Part shown: positions 34,767-64,000 of the stretch, one piece after another | Layout: each line of letters starts with the position of its first letter | How positions within the stretch are numbered: position 1 is the first letter of the stretch | Assembly: GCF_032118995.1 (NCBI RefSeq) | Contig: NC_092662.1 | Location: 17,187,701-17,251,700, forward strand | Source: Asterias amurensis | Lineage: Eukaryota; Echinodermata; Asteroidea; Forcipulatida; Asteriidae | Direction: 5' to 3' | DNA: 64,000 nucleotides | Notes under the pieces: model-generated | The model's input: the letters and a program-made list of their open reading frames with translations, nothing else | Told to the model about the DNA's origin: nothing | The model's database searches: none | Position numbers and translations under genes: made by a program

Positions 34767-37700
34767 TCATGTTTCAACCACACCAGGAAGAGTTTTGCAT
34801 CTGTTGGATGCGATGTGTTCCTTAAGGTAGTCTCCTCCTTTCTCAAGATATTCCTCCCTCGTCACAAACCCATCATTGGCTGAAGGAGTGGTGGACCATT
34901 TCTTAGCTCCGTGCCACGCATCCAGAACTGGGTCTCCTATAAATGGGAATATATTCAATAGTTAACTTTATTTCCACTCAACAAATGCTTTATAGTAGAC
35001 ATAAGGTGCATGAGGCATACAAATCTTACCTGCTGGAATGACTTGGAATGTTGATTGGAACGGCCGCATTGCCATCAGTTCAGTCTCTATCCTATCCTTC
35101 ATGTTAGGATACATCATGTTACCTCCAGTCAGAAAAACCCTCTGGATCAAACAAAATATAATACTCATTACACTTTAGAAGGTAACCGCTAGAAGCGACC
35201 TCACTGACCTCGTCAATGAGCATCAATATTGATACCTCACACCAAATGCTCACCTGTGCCAGTCTATCTTGCGTCTTACTGTCATAACTCCTTAAGACTT
35301 GATCCAAGGTTTCAGCCAGTCCAGCCTGATCATGACCAATGATGGACGGTTGGAACAAGACCTCTGGGATGCGAATTCTCTCTACTCCGAGTTGAAGCTG
35401 GTAGTATTCGGCAAGGTCAAAGGTCATCCTTGGAGTAGGTTGGGGACTGGTTTCTTTGCTGTTGTGAACAGGGAGAACGATTAGTTCAGAAACGGGACCC
35501 CTTTAATGTAGATAAGATGATCGAGGAAAGTTTTGGAGGAAACTTTACAAACGTAATAATCCACCTGTTAATTGGAACTCAAACAAGAATCAGAAGGGAC
35601 TTAGAGACCATGGGCGTAACACTCAGGAAACATGTTGGAGACTTCAAACCTGACTGGACAGGCTTTGTACTTAAGATTTTTGTAAAGTAGCCCACCGGGA
35701 TAATTTACCAGGAACCCAGACACAAATACTACACATGGAGTTTCCTTTTGGTGACCTATTCTGATCAGCAAAATTGTTTTGTGCTTTTTGTCATTTAAGA
35801 AGGCCTGTGGCTGTATGGAATTATGAACCCTGGCAAATTATGAAACCATTTGAATGTTTTTACCTGTCATAGTCCTGATCAACGTCTCTCAGAAGCAGAT
35901 CAAGATCGCATAACTTCCCCTTCTCAGACTCGTTATCGCCTCCTTCACCGTCTGGGATCTGTGTGTAAAGTTACCGTGGTAATACATAAATGTACGTAAC
36001 CTTCACAACAATAATTCAAAAAGCCTTCAGTATTTTCTCTAGAAAGATTGTACTTCAAATTACCAATACTTCTGTTCCACTCTGCACCCACCTTTGATCG
36101 AGTCTCTTGTGATAGGTCAATCTGGGAAAGCTCTTGCTGTGATTGGCTGCTCACCCCCGATATCTTGTCTTTGATCTTCTGAATGGTTGCTGTAAGCTTG
36201 TCAATCATAGACTGTAGCTCCGCCCCTGAAGAGTATCCCAGCTCCAGTAGAGCTCTCTGATGTCAAGACATTGAACAATTACAAGAATGATGAAAGTCAT
36301 TTGAGATTTAAAAATGTGAAAATAGAATTAGCTGTTCTACAACAACTTACAAATCAAAAGGACCTATGGCATGAATGCAAAGAAAGAAACGGTAAATGGC
36401 CAGGCGTTTCGACCCTAGCAGAGTCTTTCTTAGATACACACTCACCTGATAACCTTCTTCATCTTCGTCTTCAAGGAGTTCTTGAACACTCTTCAATTGC
36501 TGCATCCTATCCTCTTCAGCAGCAAGCTACATCAACAAAAACAATAAAGCTCTCCTTTAAACTCAGTTTCATCAAATACAAGTTTCAAGCAATAAACCAT
36601 AAGGGAAACTGACAGTTGATTTGGGTTTTTTGTAATTTGGGGTTGACAAAGACAAATTTATTTAGAGCAGGACAATTGAGCCTGCTGCAACCTCTAGATT
36701 AACATGCTGGCGCTCAAACAACTAAACCATATATACAGATCTAGCCCTAAAGTTGGCAGTCTCCCACATACTGATTTATCAATTTCTTCAATTCAAGTAA
36801 TCACCCTTCATCCCGTATGATGAGTAGCAATTTTTTCACCTTTTTTTTCGAGCATCTGCAAAGTTTAACTCTTGGATGCATCATTGCTCTGTACTTTCTT
36901 CATTCTTTGTAAAAGTAAATAATTCACAAAAACTTAGACTTATGTTTCTTACTCTTTCTTCTCTCCTCTTAGCATTGATCTCCTGAAGGCGTTTTATCTG
37001 CTGTTGTTTCTTGTCTTGTTTCTTATCTTCGGAGGACCATCCAGGCAACTAAGAAAGAGAAGTAAAGTACGCTTGAAATCTCCTCCTTCAAGTTCTTCAT
37101 GATACTCATTTCCTCTCAGATACAGATTGGTTTTTTTTGGTGAACATTATGAGCATGGAAACACTTCTAAAGACAACACATCATTGGCATTAACTAAACT
37201 ACAACCTTATCAACAAGACATCTCTTGAGACAGTTTTTCTTTACAATTTATTTAAACTTACCGGTGTAAATGGTAGTTGTATTCTATGCATGTGTTTATC
37301 ACAGTAGGGTATTGACTGCCAGTCATTCACCTCTGCATTGTAATCCACTGATACATATGTGTGCTCATTCACCAGCTCCTGAAACACAAATAAGTTTTAA
37401 AGACATGGACACCTTTGGTAATTGTCAAAGACCTGTCTTCTCACTTTGTGTTTCTCAACATATGCACAAAATAAAAACCTGTGAAAATTTTGAACTCAAT
37501 TGGTTGTTGAAGTTGCGAGATAATAATGGAATACACACCCCTGTCAAACGAAGTTGTGTGCTTTCAGATGCTTGATTTTGGAACCTGAAAATCTAATTCA
37601 GAGGTCTCGAAAATAAAATTTGTGGAAAAACGCTTCTTTTCTCGTAAACTATTTTACTTCAGAGGGAGCCGTTTCTCACAATGCTTTATACTATCAACAG

Positions 37701-40129
37701 GTCTCCATTGCTTGTTACCAAGTAAGTTTTTATGCTAACAATTATTTTGAGTAATTACCAATAGTGTCCACTGCCTTTAAGGGTGTGAAGTTATTGTGAA
37801 ATGTGCTATATAAGACTTAGTTATTATTATTTTTTTTATTTAGAAGCAATTCAATGACACGGCAATTTAAAAAATGCTAACCTTTTTCTGCTAAGCAAAA
37901 TGTTCTGTGCTAAGCAGAATAAGTTCATGTTTGACAAACTTTCCTTACCTCGGCTCTACTCAAATTAATAGCAGCAAAATGTGCTGGATATTTCAGTTGC
38001 AGCAACTTATGCATGAATGTTGCTGAATGCAGACCACCGATGTTGACTCGTCGACTATGTGTGACGTCTATTTTGCCTTGAATCATGGGAAGAATATGGG
38101 TAGTCTGGTAACCAGAGGAGAGTACCAGACCATCAGAGGTTCCTGTAATCAAATGAGAGTTGTGGTAATAGTGGTCATCTTATTAAGCCTATAACTCTGT
38201 GACGCTTAACACACTCAACAATATAAAAAAGTGAAGAGCAGAAATACTAACTTTGTATAGTATAAAAAAGAGCAACACATAGTTATACTTTTTTTCAACA
38301 TTACCTGAGTCCGGGGAGTTTTGATAAAAGCTGAATAGACTGGCCACACCAAAAGCCAGTTTAGGAACATGGTAGCACTCAAACAAAAGCTCCGACATCA
38401 CTGAAAAGAAAATATTATCATAATTATGTCCTCACATGATTCAACATTTTCATTTTCTTTGGATACCTGCTAAGAATAACTGAACATGGAATGTTTTTTG
38501 TTTTTGGCTGGTAACCTGTTTTTACTAAGCAAGATGTTCATGTGCTTTACAAGTTTTTGTGCTTACAGGCTTTATGAAACTTGGCCCTGATTGACTTACA
38601 CTGCCGGCAGTAACTCGGATTACAAACTGTCTCTGTCAGTACTAAAGGGTGTGTGACAGCGCCCTCTGTGTCCAGACCAAGATGCGTAAAGATGTGATCA
38701 AATACAAGCTCTTGTGAGTCGTAATTTGTGACCACATCACGGTCGAACTGTGTCTTCAGCAACCAGCGTATCGTCTCCACATTAGGAATGTCGTTTCCGA
38801 TCTGAGACTCATAGTCTTTCTTGCCTCGTTGGCGAGCGATTAAGCTACGGAAGACAAGACGGGGGGAAGGATCACTGGCCCAGCCCACTCTGCAGTAACA
38901 AGATCCTTCGGGCAAATACAAAAAGAAGACCATAATTCAGTAATAAACAGCATACATAGGAAAACTTTAACTCTAATATTAAATATGGTGGTACGTAACA
39001 GCTTTATAAAATTGGGCCCAGCACAGTGAAAAGAAGACAGGGAGTCTAACTTTGGCTAAGCTGTGTACTGTTTGATTCAACAACCACGACAGCACCGCCT
39101 CCTCAGCAGTCAGAGCCTCCTGTCTCATAATCCTAGAATTATGAGGTTCCTTCCTCTATTGAGGTTGTTGTCAATTACTCCTAGAAGAATGGGGTACCTT
39201 CTTGGAGACGATAGCGAAACGAATCTCATAGCTCTAGGAGTAGCAGAACGAACGTCATAATTCTAGGATTTTGGAGGCGATAGCAGAGCGTACCTCATAG
39301 TTCTAGGAAGTACCTGTCTCATTAGTTGCGATAACGTAACCCTCCTCCAGAGGAGGGTTATGTTATCGCAACTACTGTTCATATAATTAAATACTTACCG
39401 TTATCAATAATGAGTGGAGTGTCACTCCCTCTAACAGCTTCCGGGTACTTATGATATTTATCAGGAGTGCGGTTAAGATGACCATCTCGGAACCTGAAGG
39501 TATCACTTGATTCTGCAACATGATTTATCAAAAATAAATAACTATATAAGAACAAAGGACTGGTTCGTTATTCGGAAAAGTTTCCCTATGGCGCCACCAC
39601 TTTTTCATTCGATATAAATAATAATTATAATAGTATCTAATTTACCTCAATGAGATAGCCGTTTTTGTGAAAATGAGTGAAAAAGTGGTGGCGACATACA
39701 GAAAGTTATCCTACTTAAGTTGTTCTTCCACCCAGTACTATGAGGCAGCCGTACTATGATGATGACTAATTCAAGTTTTGGGATCTCGTTCCAAAATTGA
39801 GAAAACAGACTGGAAAGTGGAAGTTCTTTCGATTGATCTTCTTTGTTGCAAATTAAATTGTATTGTTATTTAGTTAGGCCATGGTTAGGCCATCGAGTGG
39901 AGGTAGTAGTAGACTTCCCTTCGTGGTTAGGCGGAATCAATAATATGCTAGGGCCATGCTTGGGCTGGCTGGAGACACCGGGGAGACACCGGGGGAGGAG
40001 GGGGGGGGGGGGCAGAATCTGAGATCTCCCGTGGTGGTCACACAACACAGGGTGACAAACAAAAGACAAGGTCGAAAAGGGGAAGGAGTTCTTCTCCAAG
40101 TCAATACCTGAATATTCTTCAGCTGCCAT
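34767..40129 (-). CDS. ACTR5: Actin-related protein 5 (INO80 complex subunit), 13 coding exons
   Basis: Nuclear actin-related protein of the INO80 chromatin remodeller. Exons in transcript order: 40129-40108, 39512-39399, 38905-38600, 38400-38305, 38142-37949, 37378-37262, 37048-36953, 36526-36446, 36256-36092, 35958-35864, 35458-35254, 35141-35030, 34936-34767; 1773 nt, 590 residues (human 607). Actin-fold elements: PLIIDNGS (phosphate loop 1, about residues 40-47), [46 protein letters not shown] in the second phosphate-loop position, and [16 protein letters not shown]. Between them is the charged, coiled ARP5-specific insertion ([20 protein letters not shown] and an acidic EDEDEEG). C-terminus DAWHGAKKW...[15 protein letters not shown] matches ARP5, not actin or ARP8. 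Start ATG has A at -3; a second ATG 7 nt upstream is out of frame. Complete. Confidence 0.96.
37397..37780. repeat. TGGACACTATTGG-family element, reverse of the 20.5-kb copy
   Basis: Left end TTTAAAGACATGGACACCTT, right end ATAGTGTCCACTGCCTTTAA. Interior segments CTGTGAAAATTTTGAACTCA and GAGGGAGCCGTTTCTCACAA match the 20.5-kb copy in inverted order. Lies in ACTR5 between exons 37949-38142 and 37262-37378, 19 bp from the latter's acceptor. Confidence 0.75.
38470..38590. repeat. GGGCCC-family fragment
   Basis: Contains GGCTGGTAACCTGTTTTTAC and ends GGCTTTATGAAACTTGGCCC, the typical right half. It stops about 10 bp short of ACTR5 exon 38600-38905. Related scraps lie at 37868-37922 and near 39005. 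Confidence 0.55.
39126..39373. repeat. Cluster of TCCTAGAATTAT palindromes plus a near-perfect hairpin
   Basis: Several short inverted units (AATCCTAGAATTATGAGGTT, TCATAGCTCTAGGAGT, CATAATTCTAGGATTTTGGA, CATAGTTCTAGGAAGT) occur in row, with GACGATAGCGAAACGA between. The block ends in a hairpin: arm 39324-39346 (AGTTGCGATAACGTAACCC...) and arm 39351-39373, complementary over 23 bp with one mismatch and a 4-nt loop. Lies in ACTR5 intron 2, just before exon 39399-39512. Confidence 0.75.
39574..39711. mobile_element. Second copy of the hAT-type MITE
   Basis: 138 bp. Left arm GGAAAAGTTTCCCTATGGCG continuing CCACCACTTTTTCA; right arm inverted, AGTGGTGGCGACATACAGAA. Same family as 22217-22348 but in opposite orientation (the GGAAAAG end is left here). 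The flanks CGTTATTC and TACTTAAG do not match, so the target duplication is lost or an end has eroded. In ACTR5 intron 1. Confidence 0.75.
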
Positions 40130-41631: not shown

Positions 41632-44600
41632 ATGGAAGACAAGGTTAGTCGCAGTTCTGCTGACTCTTTGTCTGTCACAGAAGAGTTTGTAGTCGTCACG
41701 CCCAACTCGGAGAAAACACCAGAGCCTAGTCAGGACAATGTATCAACAACGTCAGCGGAGAGCACTGGACTGAAGATTGTTGGCAACGGAAATATGGAAG
41801 ATCTTAAGCAACATCTGGATGAGGTCCTCGGAGGGGATCAACATGATGGTAAAGCGCCCTCGGATGGTCACGATGAAGGAGTAAGCGGTTGGGAGACACC
41901 GACTAATAACGATAAATCACGCTTTAGGAGTGTCAGCGAGCCAGTCTACTCTGCCAATAACCCATCTCACCGTGTTGGTGGTGATAGTCCAACTTCATTC
42001 CAGCAGATTTCATCACAAGATCTCGGTGAGCGAATTCTCTCGGGTCATGTGGAAAGTTGGAAGGTTAGGGATCAAGGGTCATCTAGGGATGAGGGTAGCC
42101 TTGACCCTTGGGAGCCGAGGTCAAGTCAAAATGATTTGGAAAGTAAGTAAATATTAAGTTTCTTGGGCACGGCATGTAGGAGAGGTTCCACTACTACCAC
42201 TCTCACTCCTGCACAACGGTCATGGTATGGTAATCATTTTAATTCTTAATTCATACCCAAAGGTTTTAAACTGTTTTACTAAAAAAAACGTCATGTAGGA
42301 ATACAAAGAGAATGATAACTCAAGTTTAATTCACTACTTCATGAACATTTCCAAATAATTCATAGCCAAAATATTACTTTTTATAAGAAATAACCATCAA
42401 CTTCTGACTATCCCGAATACTCTTTTTTATCATTGATGTTTTTTGCAAACTTCAAAAACTTGTTTTGACTAGAATGAAAACAAAAATGTATTTCTAATAA
42501 AATTGTTTGTGCCTTCGGGGATCTGAGCCAGAAAATTCAAAATATAAAGAATTGGTTTTTCACTTTCAAAGTTAATGAGAAACTGACTGTTATGTTAAAA
42601 CTATAGAGTATACTTAAAAATGAAAATTATAAATTTGTGTATTTAACAGTTGTTTGTCTGTTAATGTTGCATGTTGTAACTTAAATAAACGTTTGTAGAT
42701 TTTTACACCACTTGGTATCATGAAAAGTATAACTTACTAAACTTTAATTTGTTTTAAACATTTTACCACATCTTCACATGGGTTTCATTAACTTCTAACA
42801 CCACAAATCAATATTGAGAGTTTAGGAATGGTGTGCACTTAACAAAACTCTAACTTTCTTAATCCAAATCTTGTTTAAATGACTCATACTAAGTAATCAG
42901 TGCTATATGAGCAAATGTTGATAACGTTTAAAGAAACAATGCAATATCAGAGAAATCTGGAGTGATTTTTTACAGATTTTGCTGATGCTACTAGTTTCCA
43001 TGGAGGTAGAAATAGCTCTTTCTACATCCATGCTACTATACACACACATGTCCAGTACACTGGATGTAGGCCTAATTTACCAAAATGTCCCATAGTTCAC
43101 AAACGTCTGCACATTCCTATTGTTGAATCCCAGGCCATGTATTTCAAATTCTAAGGGAAATACCACATTCCTGGACTAAAGGGCAATTCAGTAAGAAAAA
43201 CAACAACAATACAAGTACACTGAGGGGTCTGAGGCTACATGATATTCCTCCCATGGGACAGTGGAAGCTTGTCCCATGTGAACTCTAGGAATTTCAGGCC
43301 TGTGGTGTCTATTTTACAATATCCAGAATCAGAATTGAGCTGAAAATCATGTTAAAAGCAATTGCTTCCGTTTCCTTGCCTTTACCTTAGGCATGCCTGG
43401 AATTTCATCTTTGAACATAGCAAAGGGCACTTCCATTGGAAAATCTTATAAAATCAATGGGAGACTTGTGACGGGCACCAAGGCCAAGACAAGGGGCAAC
43501 GAAGGCCATGCCCTTCATGGCCTGCATGTAATTCCTGCGTGGCATGCCATGGTGCCCTAAAAATTATCCCAAGTGGAGGTGTTGGAGTATGGTAAAGATC
43601 CATCCATTGGACTCCCATACACTGTGCTGCCCGGATGCTTTGTTTTTGAAAGAGCAAGGGCACCAAGGCGTTTTCTCTGCAAATTTCTGTTTGAACATTT
43701 TGAAGAGTCAATTGCCTCCATGAAATAGTAGGCCTCACTGCATGTTTGAAATTGCATATATACAAACTGCAAAGATTGGGACCTGACTATTTTTAATCCC
43801 ATCTGCAGTTTGGTTTAGTACATCAATAAACATGATAACTGCATTCACACTGAAAACAAAACATGGTTTATAATACCTTGTTATCAAGCAAGTAAATGTG
43901 GTGTACCATGTAGCACTGAAGTGTCAGACAAAACAATCAAAAGTTGTACTTAATCATTGTGTAATATTGCGTCAGTCAAGAATGTCCCAGCCACAGCAGT
44001 CTGAATAATCTATTTATTGACATAAGTCATTTCCTTAAAAATTGTACTCAATGAACTCTGTTGGGCGCTTCATTGGTCACACACGGCTAATTTAGAATCA
44101 GTTTCATTGTATGAACAAACCAGTGTATAAGGGAAGGAATGAAACCATGCGTAGTCATAAACTGCCTATCATAAGTCATACTTCCACGTTCTAGCAAAAG
44201 ACTGGATTCACTCCTCTACTCAACAACAAGAACAGTAGCCCCACTAAGTTTGGGCGTACACTCTTCATAGGTGCACAACCTACATGAAGGAGCTCTCCCT
44301 CATGACCTGACCTCATAAGAGTGTTATTGCTAGAAAGGAGCTGTTCAATTATTACATCAAGATCAAGTCAACAGTCCTTGATGGACAAATGTAGCTGCTC
44401 TGGCTATGGCTCAGGCTGTGACTGATGGTTATTGCTAAGGACATCCTACAGTACATCATGATGACGCTGCGATCCAGCCATAGCTGTAGTACTAGTACAA
44501 CTAGTCATAGCCGCAAATTCGGTCACTGTCTTAAATTTGCACATTTTGTACAAGACTTTACAAAATTTAATGTTTTTTTGCGGAAGAGTACATGTACTCG

Positions 44601-47600
44601 CTCAACCTAGATCCAGATTCAGCGGGTGTCAAATAAATTTCAATATTTTAATTGAAATAAATAGTTGAGAAAACATTGTGTAAACTTTTTCAAAATCTTA
44701 AATGCTATATAATTATGGGGAAAAAATCTTGTAAAAGTTCCTTCAATATAGCCATCATCTGTAAGATCAGGCGCTTCAATGTGCGCTATTTTCTTACTCA
44801 ACTATGTACCAAAAAACCTGTTAGAGTTTGGACTAATGAACATTAGTGATGATGTCTTAGTGTAAGACTTCATTCAACCAATTTTGTGTCTCATTAACAA
44901 TAATTCTTTATCTTATAGATCGGCTGAGCCCATCTCGAGTCGGCATGGTCCCTTTGGATAAGATCTGTACCCTGTTCTCCCGCATCATCTATCTTGGAGC
45001 AGCTTCGGTCAATGCTCCTAAGAGCGAGATGGAGGCCACTAAGAAAATGACCATCTTGAAGCAACAACAATCTCAGAATGCTATTGAGATTGTTCTGTCA
45101 GTGCCGAGGACATCTGAAGGATCTGTGAGGTGAGTTTTACTTCTTTACCTCGTTTCGATCTTCTGGATTTGGTTCTTAAGGAATATGTGTTTTGTTTGTC
45201 GTTAATTGTCGTGATGTACACAGGCCTGATACTTCACGGAGGCAACGGAGGCAACGGAGGCAATCACCTCTGTTGCCCCTTGTCATTGCCTTGGTGCCCT
45301 TGAAATGCTCCAGTAGAAATTTGCAATTTCCTCATAGGGTGCCCTTTAGAAAATGCCTTGGTGCCCTTGCTCTTTCAAAAACGAAGCATACAGCCCTGTG
45401 TACATATCCTACGAAGGATGATAGTACATGGCTCGAACTTGGGGGAAAATCCACAGAACTGAAGGGGGTTGTACCATGAAGCTCTGAAATTTTGACTGGA
45501 CCAGAAATTATTTTCCAAGACCAGAATCGAAATGAGTTGAGCAAGCACTCGGAGAAGGTCTACAGTACTTCATTTTGTGTTTACAAATGCCTTTAGTGTA
45601 CTTCTTGAAAGAAAAATATCCCATTCACGGTCAACATTTTTTGACAAAGCTATTACACAATGAGGTGTTTGATTCAAACAAATAACACAAGACCACCGGG
45701 GATGTCCCAGTTTGAGTTTACTAGCCAGACACTAACATCACAGGCCCTGTTCTGCTCAAGTAACTTTAAATAAAAGACTTCAGTGATTTACAGGAAGTGT
45801 TTCTCAGTAATTATCCATGTATTTGTTATTTCCTCCCTTGGCACTGGAGTTGCTATGTCAAGGATAAAACCATGGAAACATTTTCATTGATGAGAGAGTA
45901 GAGTACTTTTTGTTTCTCCTGAAGAAAAGCAGAGTACACATAAACTGTTTAAAACATCAAGACCACCAAACGGACGATGTTAATATTTGGTTATTTCCTC
46001 CCGTGGCACTGAAGTTCCTTTGTCAAGTACAAATTCAAGGAAACATTTTCGTTGTTAAGAGAGTATGATACACTATATATACTTCTCCTGAAGACGAGCA
46101 GAGTACTGTTCGAAACATCAAGACCACATCGGAAAATGTTTATATTTTTTCACATCAGTCTGTCCTTCTCCACCATACAGGGACTTACGTTTTTTGTGGG
46201 TTTGTTAAACAATATTTCACAAATTATTTTCTATTTCGTGTGCATTCTCAATTTTGTTAAAAGAAATATTGGTAATATTTTAAAGTAATAGTACACTGGT
46301 AAGCAGTAGTGCATACATTGTACAAGTACTTGATCCACATAATACTTCAGGTAAACATTGTACATACCCAAGGTTGCTCTGTGTACTTAATCTCATCCAT
46401 TACATTAAAGCAAGAGGAGTGCATACATGTAGATTGGAAACGCCAATGTTTCCCGAGGTCCTGAAATTTAATTCACAGGAAATTAGCAATATTGATGAAC
46501 AAAAGCAATGTGTGCTTTCATTAGATGCAGAAGAATTCATAATGTTTTACAAGGATATACTGAACATACATTTACCAGAGTGGATATTATGGTGGCCCTA
46601 CAGGGACATCTCATCTCATCTCAAATAATGTGCACATTGTACGCATGCGATGTTGTGAAATTATTCACGAACATGTTCGCACATGCACTCGTATATTTCC
46701 AGAGATGCCAAGTCCAGAGGCCAGCTATGCGTGAGATTTTTTAAAGCTTAACCCCCCCATTAGTCTCACGCCTAATGCGTGAGACTTGGTAGGTCTGTAT
46801 TTCCAATATACACTATTGTATACTTTGTTTTCTACCTCCATGGTTTCATAATGTATCTTTGAGATAATGTCATACATGTAGTTGTGGGAAATTTGTTAGT
46901 GACCTTTTAGCAGGAAAGTAGTCAGGCCCCTGTAAGCATCACTATGCAATATATGTACCCAGGAACTTGGTACCAGGCTAAGTCTTCCCATTTGGAAGAC
47001 CACCTCAACTTACTTGCCTCACAACATAACTACCACTAAAACTGCAACATTGGTGAGCAACATTTGCTACTTTTAAAAGCAGCTCTTAGAAACTATGTGC
47101 CTTGGGCCGAATTTCATAGAGCTGCTTTTAAAGCCATTGGACACTTTCGGTAAACGGTATCGTCCAAGTCCCACACTTCGTGTATCACAACTTAATATAA
47201 AACAACAAACCTGTGAAAATTTAGGCTTACTCGGTCATTGGAGTCGGGAGAAAATAACGGGAAACCCACCCTTGTTTCCGCACGTTTCGCCGTGTCATGA
47301 CATGTGTTTAAAATAAATCCGTAATTCTCGCTATCGAGAATTTATATTGTTTTACTGTTTTCTCAAAAAGTCAAGCATTTCATGGAATAATATTTCAAGA
47401 GAAGTCTTTCACCATTACCTTCTATAAACCCTGTAAATTATTTGTAAATCTGTGAACTTTTTTTTTTTCTTTCTGTACCGAAAGTGTATTATGGCTTTAA
47501 AAACACAAGAAGTAGCTATAAGCACAAAATAATTTATGTACAAGATTAAGGTTACCAGCCAAACTACAATGTAACATGTACAATTTGCGGCTGGTATCCT

Positions 47601-53600: not shown

Positions 53601-56600
53601 TGATTTGCTTAGATTGATTTTTTTACAGGACTCGGAAAAAGTACCACAGCTGGATTTTGAAGGGTCGGGATTGGGAGTTGAGGGACCCGTAGTTTCATCA
53701 AGAGTCTTAAAATAGATTCAAGCGTGATACTTCATTTTTGAAAAGGCAAGGGCACCAAGGCGCTTTCTCCTTGGTAAAGGGCACCTCCAAGCGGAAATTG
53801 TCGGTACATGTAGCAAGGCAATAACCAGGGGCAACAGAGACAATTGCCTCCTTGAAGTATCGGGCTTTTAGATTCAACTCCTCAGAAGAATCTTTTTGTT
53901 AAGTCAAGATGTGTAAGACACTCCACTCTGAAGGTTAAACCCCCTCTAGCTGTCACAGTCGTAAACTCATTGCGTAGAACTTGCTTCAGATTTAGTAATT
54001 AAGCGTCCCTAGTTTCCCAAGACTTAAGGTTTTTTGGTCTTGGCCTGAAGTGATGATTTGATGATAATTTGGATTCATCCATACCTGAAGGGCTCATTCG
54101 TTTCTAAAATTTTAAAAACTGCCGTTACACTTACAGCTTTGACATGTTGTGTTCGTTTATGGTTTACATGTGAAATTGTGTGCGTATAGACGCATGCAAC
54201 CTTACAATACAGTTGTACAAGTTTGGTTTGCGGGGTCCTCTTATTGTTATATTATTCCTTTTTAAAGGAATTCTTCTGTGGATCCAAGTTGGAACAAGAA
54301 AGAATCTTGTGGAGGTCTTTAGTAAACCCCCTGCAGTGGTCGCCATCTCTAGTGAAACGTATGCAAAAGGCTTTCATTGGTTGTAAGTCATGCGCAGCGC
54401 GTACACAATTGCACCTTTCCATTGATGACCTCAGCGATGGTGTCATATACACAAAGGAGTCTAAATCCATAAGTTTTAATAAATAAATAAAAATTAAAAT
54501 TTCAAGGGAAAAAATTCAGAAATAAATTTCTAATCATTGTGTCAAAATTTTGATTGATCCAAAACAGTAATTAGTGCAAAGACGTAATCGACCAATCATA
54601 CCTCGTTTCCTGGTCTCTGCTGCGTTTTTTGTTGTACAAACATAATACACATTGTTACTTGTATGTATAATAACCACTGTTTGTTAGTCACTTAATTAGT
54701 GGACCAGACTGGCGGCACTGGAAGATTGTTTGCCAAGCAGGGCCTGATTACCTCCCCTGGAATTCTGTGCAAGCTCTGATTGTTGGGCTAGCGCTAAAGG
54801 CACATGCTCCTTGCTTTTCCTGTGAATAACGCTTTTATTAAGCATTGAATGTTTTTCTACCGTATAAGCACATCAAGCAGAACCATAAAGTTTGGCCTAA
54901 GTACCAGCAGATGATGTACAGTTTGATACATTTAGGCTGGTAACTATTTTGGGTTTTGTAATATGTGTACATTTTTAGTGGGAGAGAAGAGGTATAAAAT
55001 TTGGGATTTTTTTGGTCAACAAATTGACCTCTTCACCAACTGATTAACTGTAGACGTGAAACAAAACACAACCATATCCCATCAAATACCAATTGTGCTG
55101 GATGTTAGTTCATGCTAAGCTATTTTCTTCCTGCTCGTCAACTTGTTGGCTCAGTTATCAGGATCATGATATCCAGCCCTAAGCTAAGGAAACTTGTGAG
55201 AGTAGGTAGAGGGCTTTAGGAAGCTAGATCCTGTAGTTAGTGCACTCAATCATGGGGCTCATTATTAGCACTTATCCAGACACCTGCAGCATCTATCCCC
55301 CTCTTGAGAAACCTAAAGTCTTCCATTCAATCCCTGCCTGATACATCAGCATCTTGACTCTACTGTTCTATTCAACATACTTAATTGAATCACACCGATT
55401 GCTTTCTCTTATCTTGCCAGATTACTGGAGCCTGATGGGAAATCAGAGATTTCGGCCTATCGGATTACGACCATTCTCTTCTGTTGCCGAGGCCGAGAGG
55501 GTACGGGTATCAGTGACTGCTTCGCATTCACCTGTGGCCATGGCAACCGTGACAGTCAGCTGTTCCAGTGTCACATCTTCAGATGTGAGGTTCCTGAAGC
55601 AGTAAGTTAAGATTCTTATTTTCAAATATGGTTGATTTTTAGCAAAAACAAGTTTTTATCTGAAAGGCCGTAAAATATTGTTTTAAAAGTTGTTGAAGCA
55701 TAGTTTTCTATAAAGAGCTTAAGGGCCTTGTCACACAAGGTAACTTTTACAGGCAACTTGGAGGCAACCAACTAAAATGGTAAGTTTTTTGAATTCAGTA
55801 TTCACTGTGCTATTTTCTATTACAGGTGCAGCGAATCTTAACGTGTTTTGGCCAGGCATTCCATCGTGTACCCCGTAGCCCTGGTCTAGTGGACAGCGTC
55901 CACGGTGCCATGCCAGCACCCAGGGAGACTCTAATGAGCTTCACCATCCCAGTCTTAGTTGACATCAGAGAGGAGGATGGTAAAGGAAACTTTGGAGCTG
56001 TGCCCAGAGATAAACGATGTTTCAAACTGAGACAAGGGGTAAAGAAAGAGGTGTTGGTGACGGTTCAACAAACTCACCATCAAGTACTCAATATTGAAAG
56101 GTTGGTGTGGCATGGTTCTCCTCATGCACAAGAGTAACGGGCCAGTACCAGCAAATTTAAAGACAAATGATATCTTTTTTTTACAAAACCACTGAGAATG
56201 CTGCATATTGCGTTTGGGTTTCTAGAGACTTCAGATAGAAATTATTCCGAAAATCTCATTTCACTTCAGTGTCCTTTGGTCAAAATTCAAATTTGGGTCC
56301 AGAATGGCACACAGTTTTGAAAACACCTGGGGAGAACCTTAGCTGGTGTTTTAAAGATGCTCTAAATAACTTTGGTAATAGTCAAAGACAGTATCCACAT
56401 GTGTGTGACCCAACATATAAATCAAAAATTAAAAACTGTGAAAGTTGAAGTCGGGGTCGCAAGAAATTAGTTAAAATCACTATTTTTTATTTTTACCTTC
56501 AAACAAATTTTGGACTTTTGGGATAAAAACTAAGTATTTTATTAATTTTTGTTTAGGTGTTTTGGTCTTCTGATCAGCCCGGGAAGGGAGGTTCCAGACA

Positions 56601-59600
56601 GAGAGATGCACCTCTTAGATGTGGTAAGTCTTGTTTTACCTTTACGTTTTGGTATTGCTCATTGTGTCACATACATGCGTATCCGCTGCATGCCCAAAGT
56701 TTTCACTACTTTCAGCTCCAAAGATGGTCAACTTTACACTGAGTGACGTCAAATGCAAACAATCTAAACTTCATGGATGCGTCCTTGCAATATAGGCAGA
56801 GCAGAAGAGTCAGTATCCTCTTTGCTTGTCACCTACAAAAGAGGATTATATCGTCGCATTAGTGCAAAAAAAGTTTATCTTCATTTTGCAAAAACCCTGT
56901 ATCTCGGCGCATTCTTGCTTTGCGTGTGCAACCGGGCTATTTTAAGCGAGGTGGGACATTGCGGCAATTGCAAACTTGTGTGTATGTGCTATGTTTGGAG
57001 ATGCGACACTTTTGCTTTGACACAGCAATATTGCCCTTTAGTTTCAAAACTTACCTCTATGCTTTTAAGAATGATATCCTTTCAGTAGAATATTGTGATA
57101 TTTTGTTTGCAGGTGAATCTTGAGACAAGCTCTGATTGTAAGAACTACACAGTCACTAGTATGTGGGATCCTAATAAGGCAGACCTTGAAGTACTCAACA
57201 CTGAATCTCCTCCAGGATTAGGTAGGTCAACCACACCCACACCAACACATAAGCCCCTCTTCTCACAATGCCTACCTTTGATCTGTGTAATTGGTGACTT
57301 TTGTAAAAGGTCTGCTACATGGATTAAAACTAAATAAGAGATTCCTTACACCCAACAATGTCTAACCCAGAGAAAAGTTCAACCAGTTCCATACTAACAC
57401 TGAAAATGGTGGTTTAACCCTGGGCAGGGTTAAATTTTACTCGGATTAAGCCAGTTTTGGGTTTGTTAATCGGGATAATTTTTAGCCCTGACAAATCTTG
57501 TGTGAGCACTCCACTTATTTCAGAGAATCGCTGGGTTAAACTTTTCCTGTGAAAGGGGCTATACAATTATTTCTTACGTTTCATGAGTTTTCACCCATTT
57601 AAAGCTTCTAAGATTTGATTCTTCATGTTTATGATTTTTGACCATGCCATTTTCAAATATTTACTTCTGGAAATTGTTTGTGTTAACAAACCTCTTGCAT
57701 TATCACTTGCAATTATGGTGAAGTAGTTGGTGCTACAAAGAAAGCTCATGCAGTTTTGTATGTAATTAGTTAGTAACTGCTACTACTACCTACCTTGTTT
57801 CCGGCAATTATGTGTACGACTTACAAAATCTTCTCCAGTCCCAGTCAGCAATTGCATTCGCTAGTATAAAAGCAAACGCTGAAAGACAATGGAAGGACTT
57901 GCAACCAGTTTATTAAACTAAGTGCAAGCACCCAGTGATAACCGGTGCAAGCTGGATAGCGTAGTGAATTTCATTTGTTACTTTACCTTTGAGGCATCTT
58001 TACAAACACTGTCCCTTTCTTGGAAGGACGTTCTGTTCATGGAGTTTATGACCTGAAAGCTCATATTCTACAAAATTAGAACTGTTGGCAACATTTCAAA
58101 ATCTGACCTAGAAGAAAAAAACGTGAACTTTTCTTTTTGGATCACTATTGGCAATCCAGTTCCGGCAGGATTTGACAGTAGCTTTACCTGTGTACATGGT
58201 AAGTGATTCACCGCACGATGATTTACTTGGTGAAAAGTACGTTGTCTGAAACATGAATGTTGGGAGCTGATCACACCCCCCTCCCCTGCATCCCCCGCTC
58301 TCCTGCTTTACCCTTCCTGTTCCCCAGGGCATGGTGCTGGGCCCTTCATTGTCAATCCTCCATCCTCCCACCCACACCTTCATTGCATCATTGTTCACAT
58401 TTTCTTGTTCTCTTAAGCATGTTCAATATGTTTGGGATTAGGTATGCAGATCTGTTAATCCCTCAATTGTCTTTAAACCACCTCCAGTTATAATATTTCA
58501 GTAAATACTCAAATAATTCTCGTCTGGTTCCCTTCGCAGATAAAGGCATGTTTATGACCATAGCTGTGGATCTTGTCATCACTGGTATCCAGGAGCCAGT
58601 TCGTTTTGTGGTTGAGACCAAAGTGCGTATTTTCCCACCCACGGAGAAATTCTGGTATTTCAACAAGAAGCCTGTTCAGGAATTCTTCTATCTCATGCTG
58701 GAAGAGGTAGGTTGAGAAAGGAACGTTGTCGGCACTCATCAAGAAAATAAAAATTGACTAAAATGTGTCATTCCAGGCCTGAGAAGAGAACAATATCGTA
58801 TTTCACTGTCACATATTCTGATTTGTTTTTAGCATTTAAGCATTCAAATAAATTGATTTCTAGCAAATATTGATTTCTATATTTTCTTGTTAACATTCTC
58901 CTGAAGACGATCAGAACATCCTGATCAAAACAGCGAGTCTTTAACCATCGGTTCTTGTCAGAACCAACACTACTTAAAAGAGATATTCACATGGTGTTAC
59001 CGCAAACCTCTCTTAAACACCTTGTTTTTAAGCAGCTTCAAATCACAGTAAGACCAAACTAACAAATCACAAACATTTCACTCCAATGTGCGTTTATCTT
59101 GTACCAGATTGAGGCTGCTGTTGAGAATGAGCCAGCGTATGCCGTACTGACTCTAGAGAGTGAATCCCAACGAGAGAGGAGACGGATACCAACACGCTCA
59201 CCAAGCACTAACCTTGTACAAACACCTGACAGTATGACATCAGTCGCAGAGGAAGAAAGTGGTAACTAATTTATTCATTAAATATTATTATCAGAATAAA
59301 TAGTAAGTCTGGGCCCAATTTTATGGCTCTGCTTACCTCAGAATTCTGCACTTACAATCACTATTCGCTGCTTACCTGCAAGCGCCGAATTTCTGCGCTA
59401 GCCTTGTAAGCGTAGAATGCCTATAGTAACGTTTAGTACGCATGTGCAGAAGCCAAAATTCGCCGCTTACCCGTGAACTACGCTTGCCGTAAGCACAGAA
59501 TTCCCTGCTTCCATAAGCGCCGATTCTGTGCTTACGGTAAGCAGAGCCATGAAACAGTACCCAGTTGTCTTTATTATAATAATACCAATATTCTTGCCAA

Positions 59601-60329
59601 AGTATTCCTTAACTCTTCTTTCACCAGAGGTTTTCTTTAACGATTTCCTTACAATACTGTTTCTCTTCCCTTACAAAAATTTGTCTTCAACTCTTCCCTT
59701 ACCAAAGTTTCAATAACTCTCTAATTTGCAAGGTATTCCCTTTCTCTATCCTTATTTAAGTACTAATTACCTCTTTGTTGACCAAAGTTTATCCCAAATG
59801 CTGCCCTCACCAGACATTTTCTCTGGTAAGGGACTAAGGGGCACCTATATGAGGAATAATTCAATTTGCTTTGGAACTTTGCAAAGGGCACCAGAGTAAA
59901 ATCACAGTACCACAGCAATTCTTGGGGTGCTATTTGTCATTTCCAGGCCTGGCTTTGTTCGTTGGGAATGTCTACCTGTAGACACTGAGGATTTTTACAA
60001 AATATTTTTGTCTTTTGAACAAAGAGAAGATGACCTGACATGCTAGAGCGGGATTTACGATTACTTTTGATTTTTTTACTCCAGATGATGATGAGCCTCT
60101 GCAGAGTGGATCCGGCAACGTTGACAAAGACTGTGAGGAAAGTATCCTATTGAATTGGGGAGACCTCCTGGCTAAATGGCGTTCCAATCTCAGTGTCCGC
60201 CCCAAACATCTCCGCTCGATGGTCCGCAAGGGTATTCCTGAAGCCCTACGGGGTGAGGTTTGGCAGCTCCTGGCTGGGGTTAAAGAGTGTGAGGACCTGA
60301 TGGAAGAATACCGTGTTCTTATCACAAAG
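41632..60329 (+). CDS. RABGAP1: Rab GTPase-activating protein 1 (TBC family), N-terminal 640 codons; continues past the window
   Basis: Rab GAP with PTB, kinesin-like and TBC domains, then a coiled coil. Exons: 41632-42142, 44919-45129, 55421-55601, 55826-56100, 56557-56623, 57113-57221, 58540-58706, 59108-59261, 60085-60329; all joins keep frame, 1920 nt. N-terminal tail (residues 1-180) acidic, with GLKIVGNGN as in vertebrates. PTB domain about 185-320: RIIYLGAASVNAPKSEMEA, ISDCFAFT, FQCHIFRCEVPEA. The kinesin-like (DUF3694) region follows: IREEDGKGNFGAVP, KRCFKLRQGV, ERCFGLLISPGRE, VDLVITGIQEPVRF. Acidic linker EEESGDDDEPLQSGSG, then WGDLLAKWR and the TBC start RKGIPEALRGEVWQLLAG (about 607-624). 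The catalytic Arg and Gln fingers must lie in exons beyond 64000. An in-frame TAA 12 nt upstream fixes the ATG. One invertebrate gene would be ancestral to RABGAP1 and RABGAP1L. Confidence 0.96.
42143..44918 (+). other. RABGAP1 intron after the first coding exon
   Basis: 2.8 kb. Contains a GGCCTGAT-family repeat (43440-43735) and a fragment near 44395-44525 (GGCTATGGCTCAGGCTGTGA ... AGCCATAGCTG ... CATAGCCGCAAATTC) of a further low-copy repeat also seen near 16.15 and 27.8 kb. No exon recognised. Confidence 0.65.
43440..43735. repeat. GGCCTGAT-family repeat copy
   Basis: Contains GACGGGCACCAAGGCCAAGA, GAAAGAGCAAGGGCACCAAG and ends CAATTGCCTCCATGAAATAG. Reverse orientation relative to the 17.4-kb copy, with an internal stretch not shared by it. 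Confidence 0.6.
45225..45395. repeat. GGCCTGAT-family repeat copy
   Basis: CAGGCCTGATACTTCACGGA followed by duplicated GGCAACGGA units, then GCCTTGGTGCCCTTGAAATG, CTCATAGGGTGCCCTTTAG and ATGCCTTGGTGCCCTTGCTC. Same orientation as the 17.4-kb copy. Confidence 0.7.
47102..47668. repeat. Nested repeats: TGGACAC-family element inside a GGGCCC-family element
   Basis: The outer element opens TTGGGCCGAATTTCATAGAG at 47102 and closes GCAGCTGTATGAAACTTGGC near 47665. Between its left end and its interior (GGTTACCAGCCAAACTACAA ... GGCTGGTATCCTGCTAATTT) sits an inverted-repeat element, 47128-47501, with ends TTTAAAGCCATTGGACACTT and inverted AAGTGTATTATGGCTTTAAA. This gives a relative age: the outer element was in place first. 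Confidence 0.7.
48700..49120 (+). promoter_or_regulatory. Candidate internal promoter or enhancer in the RABGAP1 intron
   Basis: A unique, less AT-rich stretch contains CGCTACACGCACTCGATC, a full CRE TGACGTCA (48851-48858), the E-box-like palindrome CAGCTG (48916-48921) and a pyrimidine run (CTTCTCTTCTCTGCCTCTCT). An ATG near 48996 opens only 13 codons. Position and composition resemble an alternative start region; no splice donor was confirmed. Confidence 0.25.
51775..52068. repeat. GGCCTGAT-family repeat copy
   Basis: Carries GGCAACACAGGTCATGGCCT, CTCACAGGGTGCTCTTTACC, ATGCCTTGGTGCCCTTGCTC and ends CATACAGGCCTGATA. The 62-codon open frame within it is repeat sequence. Confidence 0.65.
53513..53665 (+). 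mobile_element. tRNA-derived SINE, second copy
   Basis: Matches the 10.3-kb SINE in order: CTGCCTCTAGCCACCGGGCA, an eroded A box (GTGATCTAGTGC), the B box GGGTTTGATTCCCATCTGAG, then TTTTTACAGGACTCGGAAAA and GTACCACAGC. Confidence 0.7.
53722..53870. repeat. Short GGCCTGAT-family copy with clear inverted ends
   Basis: Begins CGTGATACTTCATTTTTGAA and ends CTCCTTGAAGTATCGGGC, so GATACTTC and GAAGTATC are inverted. About 150 bp, directly after the SINE. Confidence 0.7.
59311..59563. repeat. GGGCCC-ended element with internal GCTTAC repeats
   Basis: Opens GGGCCCAATTTTATGGCTCT and closes GTAAGCAGAGCCATGAAACA, inverted. The interior repeats GCTTAC/GTAAGC with AATTCTGC-like motifs on both strands (CTGCTTACCTGCAAGCGCCG, TCCATAAGCGCCGATTCTGT). 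A distinct subfamily, directly after RABGAP1 exon 59108-59261. Confidence 0.7.
59805..59955. repeat. GGCCTGAT-family repeat fragment
   Basis: GGGGCACCTATATGAGGAAT, TTTGCAAAGGGCACCAGAGT and TTTCCAGGCCTGGC correspond to the right half of the family. Confidence 0.5.
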
Positions 60330-60352
60330 GTAAGTTCTTTCAAGTTATTTAT

Positions 60353-60600
60353 GGACCCAATTTCGTAGAGTTGCTCAAGCACAAAAAGTTGCTCAACACA
60401 AGTAAGGTTTGCGGTGACACCTTGTAAAATCTGTCAGTGTGTTGTGGTGGCTCTGAGAGAATTATTCTTACCAGAATTAGGTTCCCAGCCAAAATACAAT
60501 GTCTCATGTACAACTTGTGACTGGTATCCTGCTAAAGTTCTGCTAAGCAGAATATTTTTAGGCAGCATTTTCTGATTCAGTAGCTCTATGAAATTGGCCC
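60353..60600. repeat. GGGCCC-family element, 248 bp
   Basis: Left end GGACCCAATTTCGTAGAGTT, right end AGTAGCTCTATGAAATTGGC; inverted. Interior GGTTCCCAGCCAAAATACAA and GTGACTGGTATCCTGCTAAA. Begins only 23 bp after the end of RABGAP1 exon 60085-60329, next to the splice donor. A related fragment is at 61540-61625. Confidence 0.75.
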
Positions 60601-62724
60601 AGGTCATGTTTAATTTCCCCACATCAATTTTGAAATTATATGCCATATGGTTCGTCAAAGTTATCTTTGCAATAGGTGACACAACACAGCAGGTGGAGTT
60701 GGCTTAAATTGACCCCTTCCCTGCACCCTATCCCTCTTGCTGTTCCTGTTCCCCTTCTGTCCTCCTACCCCACCCACCCATCATCTTGCCCCCTATACAC
60801 TCCACTTCATCCCTTGTACAGATCAACAAGCAGACCATTCAACTTTGACTCTTAACAATTTTTCAAATAAGTTCACATAATATTAACGATCTACTTCTCA
60901 AAAATGTATAATTTCTAAAATTGAAATCCAAAGACTTTCTGTCTTTTTGACCTAGTAAGAACTGTGTCATGGTTAGCCTCCATTGAACAATTCAATGTGT
61001 TGTACAACTCAAGTAAAAAGAGCCCTCTATTGATCATTGGTTCAAGATTTAATGAGAAGTGACAGTTAATTGAGTGTGGCGCCCTCTGTTGAATGAGACT
61101 GTTGTGAGAATTTTCTATGGCTGTGTGTATTACTCTGAGGTTCTAGATTTTTGAACTCTGAATTGACAGTTTCAATACTGCATTTAAAATGTATGAACAG
61201 CGTTAGTGCAATGAAATACTTTCATTGAAGAAAGTCACCGTCACACAAAATTCTGATGAAAAGAAAATGTAGCAAACTTGAAGACAGATTCTTTGACCAT
61301 CACATCCACAGACAATTCATAAATCAATTTGGATATTTGCCATGATAATTTATTTTTAAATAGACAGTGATTATGTACATTTATACATAATAATATAATT
61401 AAAAGTGTCCCACAAAATCTTAACAATTACTTTCGTTTTTAACAACATACTGTTTATGTAGTCATCAATTTAATATTAACAATCTTGGTTGCATATTATC
61501 AAACTCTCATCTTTGTAAAAACAAATTTAAGCTCACCAAAATACAATGTCATGCTTAGCACATATGTTTTTAGGCAAACTGTTACAGGTTTATTTTGCCA
61601 ACAGTTCTATGCAATATGGCCCTGGATTTGGCTTGGGTTTTACAAGAAGAAAGTTGTGATTTGGGACTGTCTAATTCCTTTCAAACTTTTTACTATGTAC
61701 TTTTTTTTTGAATAGGAATGTTTTTTAAATGTGTCAAGTGATAATTTACAAGCAACCAGGTTTGGGTCATCTCCAAGAAAAGAACAAATCCCATAGTGTC
61801 AAAACAAATTCCCATGGATAGTACGTCACTTTCAGATAATTTGCTTTTGCCATCCAAGTGAAACAAATTTGTGTACTACACACCTTTTATAGACCAAGTT
61901 ACAGGATAAATAATGTCAAGTGTGACATGGCCCCAATAATACATTAATAACATTATATTCAGGTCAATAATCTCCAAGGTTTTTCTTCAATTCTCCCAAT
62001 TCTCCATTTGCCTTAAAATTCCAGCACGTAAGAACTAAAGAAGCCATTAGGGAAAGCTGGGAGCTCTTGAAATATCTCGTGGCTGAGTCCAAGATTTTGT
62101 TTTCTATATTTGTGATGATTCAGAGAGTTTGATAACCATGGAAACGTAACCCACAAGATGATTGTGAACCTTTTCCCATAAGTCCATGAGACTAAAGGGA
62201 CACCTGTGTCAAGTTTATTTACTTTGTTCAGTTTGCCTCTTTTTTGTACAAACAACATTAATCGTGCCAGATTTACTTGTAAACAAGGGCCAAAGTTTTT
62301 GTTAATTTTTTTTTTAAAGATTTGTTGTTTTATGTCTAACCACAAATATCAACAAAAAGTTCACAACACTTTTTCAAAAAATTGTTTTTTTTAAATTCTT
62401 TTGTGGTCAATGACACTTGATATGAAAAAAAAATCAGTTGTAATAAATGCAATCTGTCAATGCATTTTTCCTGCTAATTCCTTGATCATGTCTTTTTGCC
62501 ATCAAAATCCATTTTGACTTAAAAAAATAAAAGAAAAATCTTATTTTGTGAAAAAAATACATCTTTCAATAAACATGCCTGTAGTACTTAGTAAAATATT
62601 TTATCTCAGTACTTAATAAATCCATCTCTGTTACAGTTTCATAACCAAGTTTGTTACATAAATTTGTTAAATTTCAAACCAAAAATACTTCAGAACTAGA
62701 TCTCTTTTATTAGGTAGTCTAAGA

Positions 62725-63789
62725 TTAACAGTTCGTCACAGAAAATTCCTGTAGCTGCATCACCTGACTTTGTGAACGTTCCCTGCTCTTAGAGAAGCAA
62801 AGATCCTTACATGTTTTACATACTGAGGTTATACCACGCCAACATGACCTGAGCATCAAGTAGAACCCCTCACGGAATGATCGATGTCCGATGATATAGA
62901 TGATGCAGTTAAGAAAACTATTTAAGAATCCCAGCCATGCGGTCAAGAAGCTGACCACTGGATTCACCTGGACTTGACATGTGACTTCGATGATCTTCTG
63001 AATCACAAAGGGTATCCAGGAGAAGTAGAAAGCACTGATTACGATAAGGAACATCTTAGCTAGCATCCGCTCGTAGATTCTTGTGGTTGTATCTTGAGTG
63101 TCTGGCTCGTGAAACAGCGTCTCTAATCGCTCAATGTGTCTAGTTTGTGCCAGGCAAGCATGTAGGATGTGATAGTAGCAGAAAATAGATATAATGAGTG
63201 AAGGAATAATGAGGATGCAAATCACGCAAAATGACACTTGTAAACTTTTGTCGAAAGTTACCTTGCAGTCATTGCTTTGAGCGAATCCACCCCAACCAAA
63301 CATGGCTGGTAGAAATATGAGTAAAACTAAAATCCATACAATCAAAGCGTAGATGCGAGCTCGGCGTTTAGTCACGATGGATTTATATTTCAGTGGTTTA
63401 ATGATTGCGATGTAACGATCGATGCTTACACATGTTAAGCTCAATATAGATACAGCGACCATAACAGCTAGGAGGTACCCCATGAGCTTACATGACCACA
63501 TCTCATGTGGCCAATCGGTAGCCCACTGGGATTGCGTCGCGATCAAGACACAAACACCAACCCCCAGATCGGCCACAGCTAACGAGCGAACAAATACACC
63601 CGTCATGTTCTCCAATGTCTTCATATATTGGAACACTATCAAGACAATGATGTTTGCTGATATAGTTAAGATGGAGGTGAGAAGTAATGTTACTCTAGCC
63701 AACTCAGCATTCAAACCAACACTGTCCGTGATTCTCGTTGCATTTGTAACATTATCATAGTACATGTAGGAGTACAGTGTCTCGGCCAT
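62725..63789 (-). CDS. GPR52: Intronless class A GPCR, GPR21/GPR52-like, nested antisense in RABGAP1
   Basis: 354 residues, one exon, ATG at 63789 with A at -3. Two N-glycosylation sites (N13, N16). Seven hydrophobic segments: TM1 about 30-54, TM2 64-86, TM3 98-122, TM4 146-168, TM5 184-207, TM6 244-268, TM7 276-300. Key residues: D74 (2.50), C100 and C175 (disulfide pair), DRY 124-126, W152, P196, SWIP 257-260 in TM6, and NCIIY 294-298 in TM7 where most family members have NPxxY. Vertebrate GPR21 and GPR52 share this NC-x-IY variant, as well as FLPxxFGWG in TM4/ECL2 and SFLT-WL before TM7. A Cys-rich tail (C316, C324, C327, C331) suits palmitoylation. Known members are Gs-coupled orphans; coupling here is inferred. 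Location in RABGAP1 strongly supports the orthology. The symbol is approximate: the gene should be ancestral to both vertebrate paralogues. Confidence 0.9.
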   Translation of the reverse strand: MAETLYSYMYYDNVTNATRITDSVGLNAELARVTLLLTSILTISANIIVLIVFQYMKTLENMTGVFVRSLAVADLGVGVCVLIATQSQWATDWPHEMWSCKLMGYLLAVMVAVSILSLTCVSIDRYIAIIKPLKYKSIVTKRRARIYALIVWILVLLIFLPAMFGWGGFAQSNDCKVTFDKSLQVSFCVICILIIPSLIISIFCYYHILHACLAQTRHIERLETLFHEPDTQDTTTRIYERMLAKMFLIVISAFYFSWIPFVIQKIIEVTCQVQVNPVVSFLTAWLGFLNSFLNCIIYIIGHRSFREGFYLMLRSCWRGITSVCKTCKDLCFSKSRERSQSQVMQLQEFSVTNC

Positions 63790-64000
63790 TGTTACTAGTT
63801 TTTTAAATTTATTTTTAGGACAATTTCACTTGATTTTCCTTTCTGAGATATGCCGGTTCTCAGCTGTTATGTTGTGCTTCATTGATGTCAAAATGAGAAT
63901 TAGTCGAGTTGTTTTCATGAGAGTGACCAAACCAGTATATTGTTGTGTATCCCTTACTATGTTCATCTCTAGCGGGACGTCAAACCCAAGATCTAAATGC

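Follow-up and report, generated by a model that had tools for sequence, protein, structure and literature searches.

Altogether our results make it very likely that the intronless receptor gene at this Asterias amurensis locus is the single pro-orthologue of the vertebrate receptors GPR21 and GPR52 and has sat inside RABGAP1 since before the vertebrate genome duplications, kept there mainly, we propose, because the intron acts as a trap. This gene-within-gene is probably older than the vertebrates. The window that we analysed is a stretch of 64,000 nucleotides (C15:17187701-17251700) from a genome of 491,506,623 bp in 23 contigs, of which C15 comprises 18,103,274 bp. Within it, RABGAP1 exons lie on one side of the receptor only, and nesting is unreadable from the window alone because the next host exon falls outside it. 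Window-extended coordinates, used below, continue the window numbering through 40 kb of adjoining DNA on the same chromosome. From the window, RABGAP1 was reassembled as nine coding exons lying between 41632 and 60329, which have GT-AG borders and join into a single open frame of 640 residues. The host protein shares 97% identity with RABGAP1 of Asterias rubens. The host and receptor features are as follows.

41632-42142, plus strand: RABGAP1 first coding exon, with the ATG (A. rubens isoform X1 has a shorter form, ending near 42024)
44919-45129, plus strand: RABGAP1 coding exon 2
55421-55601, plus strand: RABGAP1 coding exon 3, starting within an arginine codon in phase 2, like human exon 5
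55826-56100, plus strand: RABGAP1 coding exon 4
56557-56623, plus strand: RABGAP1 coding exon 5
57113-57221, plus strand: RABGAP1 coding exon 6
about 58160-58198, plus strand: RABGAP1 cassette exon VPAGFDSSFTCVH, 13 residues, from Asterias rubens isoform X1, borders placed by eye
58540-58706, plus strand: RABGAP1 coding exon 7
59108-59261, plus strand: RABGAP1 coding exon 8
60085-60329, plus strand: RABGAP1 coding exon upstream of the receptor and last in the window, ending VLITK in phase 0 with a gtaagt donor
60330-64000, plus strand: host RABGAP1 intron, in-window part, continuing to window-extended 76814
62706-62711, minus strand: putative receptor poly(A) signal AATAAA, a sequence match only, 13 bases past the receptor stop
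62725-63789, minus strand: GPR21/52-type receptor, complete single-exon coding sequence of 354 residues, identified by ORF, Pfam, matches and trees

The next host exon (beginning ISPAEQ) is on the plus strand at window-extended 76815-76928 and has proper borders, the remaining exons come after it, and the last coding match ends at 86296. Since host exons of the same strand flank it on both sides, the receptor is nested in a RABGAP1 intron, as an earlier note on this DNA had claimed, and it is antisense to the host, as that note had also stated. The intron (60330-76814) spans 16,485 bp, is of phase 0 and contains no N; the receptor lies 2.4 kb from the upstream host exon, and its frame, 366 codons from stop to stop, is the longest open frame in the intron, the next having 115. 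Past LITK, the host frame continues in the window for 12 residues and then meets a stop. On the plus strand AATAAA occurs at 62442, 62526, 62568 and 62615, just before the receptor. The host itself is single-copy, again as proposed: 20 of the 27 genome matches of RABGAP1 (query P0022) are pieces of this one gene, and the remaining seven are confined to the TBC region, at 24-46% identity.

Several lines of evidence place the receptor in the GPR21/GPR52 family. No intron interrupts the open frame between its ATG and its stop codon, and the product matches Pfam 7tm_1 (E 8.5e-45), which makes it a class A receptor. Among solved structures, GPR52 (172.7 bits) and GPR21 (153.7) come out on top, with the next match at 106.8. 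In a reciprocal search of the starfish genome with a primate GPR52 (P0145), the receptor locus ranks first at 180.4 bits, the next at 92.4. These matches, together with the trees below, bear out the description of this gene as an intronless GPR21/GPR52-family receptor. The motifs that the earlier note had taken as family marks fared differently from each other. In TM7, NCxxY replaces NPxxY in the starfish receptor and in 43 of 43 family rows, and that mark stands; among 16 other rows tested, NPxxY is present in 11, and in four the pattern was not found at TM7. NCxxY also occurs in own_L002. FGWG, at the start of extracellular loop 2, is present in the starfish receptor and in 33 of 43 family rows, and for that reason it is no defining mark. 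Forty columns are invariant across the 43 family rows, and the starfish receptor is 72% identical to that of Patiria. Together with the close match of the host protein to Asterias rubens, this bears out the echinoderm origin inferred in the earlier note. An AlphaFold model (mean pLDDT 78.0) has a class A receptor fold, and the fold comparison gives no closer placing within class A. GPR52 couples to Gs and has basal activity, and the starfish receptor is predicted to signal in a similar way, through G-protein coupling and perhaps Gs. The sea cucumber receptors P0170 and P0194 are without FGWG and more diverged than other echinoderm receptors.

Phylogenetic trees carry the orthology. With 43 rows, the echinoderm receptors and GPR21/52 form one clade (98/92) that also includes own_L002; in a 34-row tree the support is 100/99. 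The outgroups of these trees are a limited set, three of them entered by hand. Left out between the two were long branches (own_L002, own_L004, own_L005, own_L006, own_L008, a TAAR and a bradykinin receptor) and both holothurian receptors. A tree with GPR21, GPR52 and other receptors had been suggested as a check, and in both trees the starfish receptor falls inside the GPR21/52 clade. It lies outside the GPR21 plus GPR52 pair, which has support of 100/100, and in AU tests the trees that unite the echinoderm receptors with only GPR52 (p 2.2e-5) or only GPR21 (p 2.6e-5) are rejected. The starfish receptor is thus co-orthologous to vertebrate GPR21 and GPR52. In the 34-row tree, GPR52 is a clade of its own (100/100), GPR21 is not resolved as a clade, and the echinoderm receptors form a single group at 91/81 only. 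No hemichordate, amphioxus or protostome receptor is among the 120 of 383 receptor rows listed, which proves nothing on their absence and leaves the gap between starfish and vertebrates unfilled.

A second starfish receptor, at L002 1354-2556 on the minus strand (C2:15472183-15473181), has NCLIY in TM7 and ERY in place of DRY. It is the second-best match both to the nested starfish receptor (150.8 bits) and to GPR52 (92.4). In the 43-row tree a very long branch attaches it to the echinoderm receptors (support 85/92), and it is perhaps a divergent paralogue.

The association with RABGAP1 extends to other echinoderms. As a proxy we compared the sizes of the contigs that encode the two genes, equal size indicating linkage and neither nesting nor strand, in 120 of 1085 RABGAP1 rows and 120 of 383 receptor rows. 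Five of the six echinoderms with both genes named among the matches listed have them on contigs of equal size: Acanthaster (2,206,660), Patiria (28,613,699), Diadema (3,430,391), Lytechinus variegatus (33,098,554) and the crinoid Anneissia (1,418,838). Apostichopus differs, with a receptor contig of 185,290 and RABGAP1 contigs of 400,897 and 26,795,855, perhaps because the assemblies are different or fragmented. Since the linkage is common to a crinoid, a sea urchin order and several asteroids, it is old on the echinoderm side. Among the matches listed, Amphiura, Antedon and Holothuria appear with the receptor only, and Strongylocentrotus, Lytechinus pictus and Asterias rubens with RABGAP1 only. 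By eye, contig sizes also agree for GPR21 and RABGAP1 in all three vertebrates present in both sets of listed matches (Latimeria, Phodopus and Apodemus). RABGAP1 words, a sign of read-through models, occur in none of the 120 of 383 GPR21/52 rows listed.

The vertebrate nests, as described in excerpts of two papers, can be set beside the starfish one. Like the starfish receptor, which is co-orthologous to it, vertebrate GPR52 has a single exon and lies within an intron of a RABGAP1-family gene, RABGAP1L. GPR52 and RABGAP1L have the same orientation in seven named vertebrates (excerpts of PMC4372774); in the starfish, by contrast, the receptor runs antisense to its host, and each of the two genes is a single pro-orthologue. 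In the mouse, Gpr21 lies within Rabgap1 between exons 13 and 14 (PMC4813635, in excerpt), which matches the starfish in receptor family, host family and host exon structure at comparable borders. Mouse Gpr21 is on the positive strand, with only Strbp opposite (same excerpt), so it shares the strand of its host, unlike the starfish receptor. The statement in the earlier note that the human receptors share the host strand agrees with what both papers say of vertebrates. The same excerpts of PMC4372774 use Drosophila DopEcR and GAPcenA as homologues of Gpr52 and Rabgap1l, treating them as the fly receptor and host.

Does the starfish receptor occupy the same intron? Human RABGAP1 exon 5 starts at c.591 (PMC12210447, in excerpt). 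This is the last base of codon 197, which encodes an arginine in mammals, and starfish coding exon 3 begins at the same base of the corresponding arginine codon. Further downstream, the borders to which mammalian isoforms point, at residues 636, 661, 703, 751 and 765, agree with starfish exon borders. In nine of 105 rows (P0035, P0038-P0141; vertebrate where named) the protein departs right after LITK, through an exon skip or a different end, which indicates that the LITK exon boundary exists in vertebrates; in P0043 and P0054 the residue following LITK is still the usual E, and the break there could be one residue later. Judged from these sequence comparisons, the host gene structure is old and conserved at comparable borders, the LITK boundary included. 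Counting from human exon 5 and allowing one vertebrate split (suggested by the sturgeon model P0035, whose record is unverified), LITK would fall at the end of exon 12, or of exon 13 given one extra vertebrate intron; the count is uncertain by about one. Among the papers searched for RABGAP1 exon numbers, c.591 is the only usable anchor for placing the host exon that precedes GPR21, and the excerpts of PMC5089861, PMC8622392, PMC4190321 and PMC7616538 gave no help with the numbering.

Host transcripts appear able to end in the LITK intron in sea urchins and in vertebrates, because gene models stop soon after it: three sea urchin models (P0026-P0028) 4 to 8 residues past LITK, and models from Xenopus, two caecilians and tree shrew 1 to 50 residues past it, without the TBC domain. 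The early-ending, TBC-less models are P0026, P0027, P0028, P0043, P0054, P0077 and P0109.

We envision a scenario in which one intron of the single ancestral RABGAP1 already housed the receptor before the vertebrate genome duplications, as the earlier note had proposed and as the tree and the linkage together support well. Host duplication would then have given RABGAP1 and RABGAP1L, with the nested receptor carried along to become GPR21 and GPR52, and an inversion within the intron, in either the starfish or the vertebrate lineage, would have left the receptors on opposite strands. The intron of a needed gene may be a trap, in that moves taking the receptor out would tend to break the host and an inversion inside the intron would cost little; the nest would thus persist mainly because exit is hard and inversion inside is harmless. 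Against this explanation stand the orientation opposite to that in vertebrates and the unequal contigs of Apostichopus, and equal contig sizes elsewhere speak for linkage only.

The opposite orientation could also be read as a sign of two separate insertions of the receptor into a RABGAP1 intron, one in echinoderms and one in vertebrates. It is a single-exon gene, like retrocopies, and the vertebrate intron may be a different one. We nevertheless regard independent insertion as quite improbable: the receptors are orthologous and the hosts homologous, an unlinked gene would land by chance within the host gene span with a probability of about 9e-5 and within this intron with one of about 3.4e-5, and the linkage is old within the echinoderms. 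It is hardly credible that assembly error, a pseudogene or a chance open frame accounts for the arrangement. The receptor is known here from its sequence, but its 354-codon frame is intact, the invariant family columns and the modelled class A fold speak against such an origin, and equal-sized receptor and host contigs recur in five other echinoderm assemblies.

What keeps the nest is a separate matter. Selection might hold the same ancient nest through receptor enhancers in host introns or through required co-expression, as the earlier note had suggested, which we consider possible if doubtful. Excerpts of PMC4372774 report that Gpr52 and Rabgap1l have opposing effects on huntingtin levels and that HTT knockdown lowers both mRNAs, and suggest shared enhancers; moreover, the starfish and vertebrate lineages have both kept the nest, the latter in each of its two hosts. 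However, the strand flip speaks for an unconstrained relative orientation, and the trap accounts for persistence without regulation. A bolder proposal, which we think unlikely, is that the nest dates to the deuterostome ancestor or earlier, that it occupies the very same phase-0 intron, where the TBC (GAP) domain begins, and that receptor enhancers within the host keep it there. If this were true, one intron may switch both genes, because host models from sea urchins, amphibians and tree shrew end there and lose the GAP domain.

An echinoderm copy would date the nest to before the vertebrate duplications and account for the RABGAP1-type hosts of both GPR21 and GPR52. The excerpts of PMC4372774 connect GPR52 with its host RABGAP1L in models of Huntington's disease, ask whether the nest is functional and raise the option that Gpr52 mRNA is cut from host intron RNA. 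The starfish separates these hypotheses: since its receptor is antisense, it cannot be cut from host pre-mRNA, such processing is impossible here and the receptor needs a promoter of its own. We found no report of the nest outside vertebrates among the papers searched on GPR21/GPR52 with RABGAP1/RABGAP1L, which is weak evidence of absence, and none among those on nested genes and microsynteny; in the invertebrate deuterostome literature neither receptor is mentioned among the matches listed. Starfish and sea urchins offer test systems for the persistence of nested genes.

Four neighbours of RABGAP1 lie in the window. Glutamine synthetase is matched at 732-1076 and 1832-2245 (minus), the APC5 N-terminus weakly at 20916-21203 (minus; 26 bits against a cut-off of 27), uridine-cytidine kinase at 28046-28318 (plus), and an actin-family gene, by eye resembling ACTR5, at 35119-35499 and 38547-38933 (minus). 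We take human 1q to carry GLUL, UCK2 and RABGAP1L, and 9q to carry UCK1 and RABGAP1, a placement that would fit a shared ancestral block. The window also contains one tRNA gene.

10310-10383, plus strand: tRNA-Ser (anticodon AGA)
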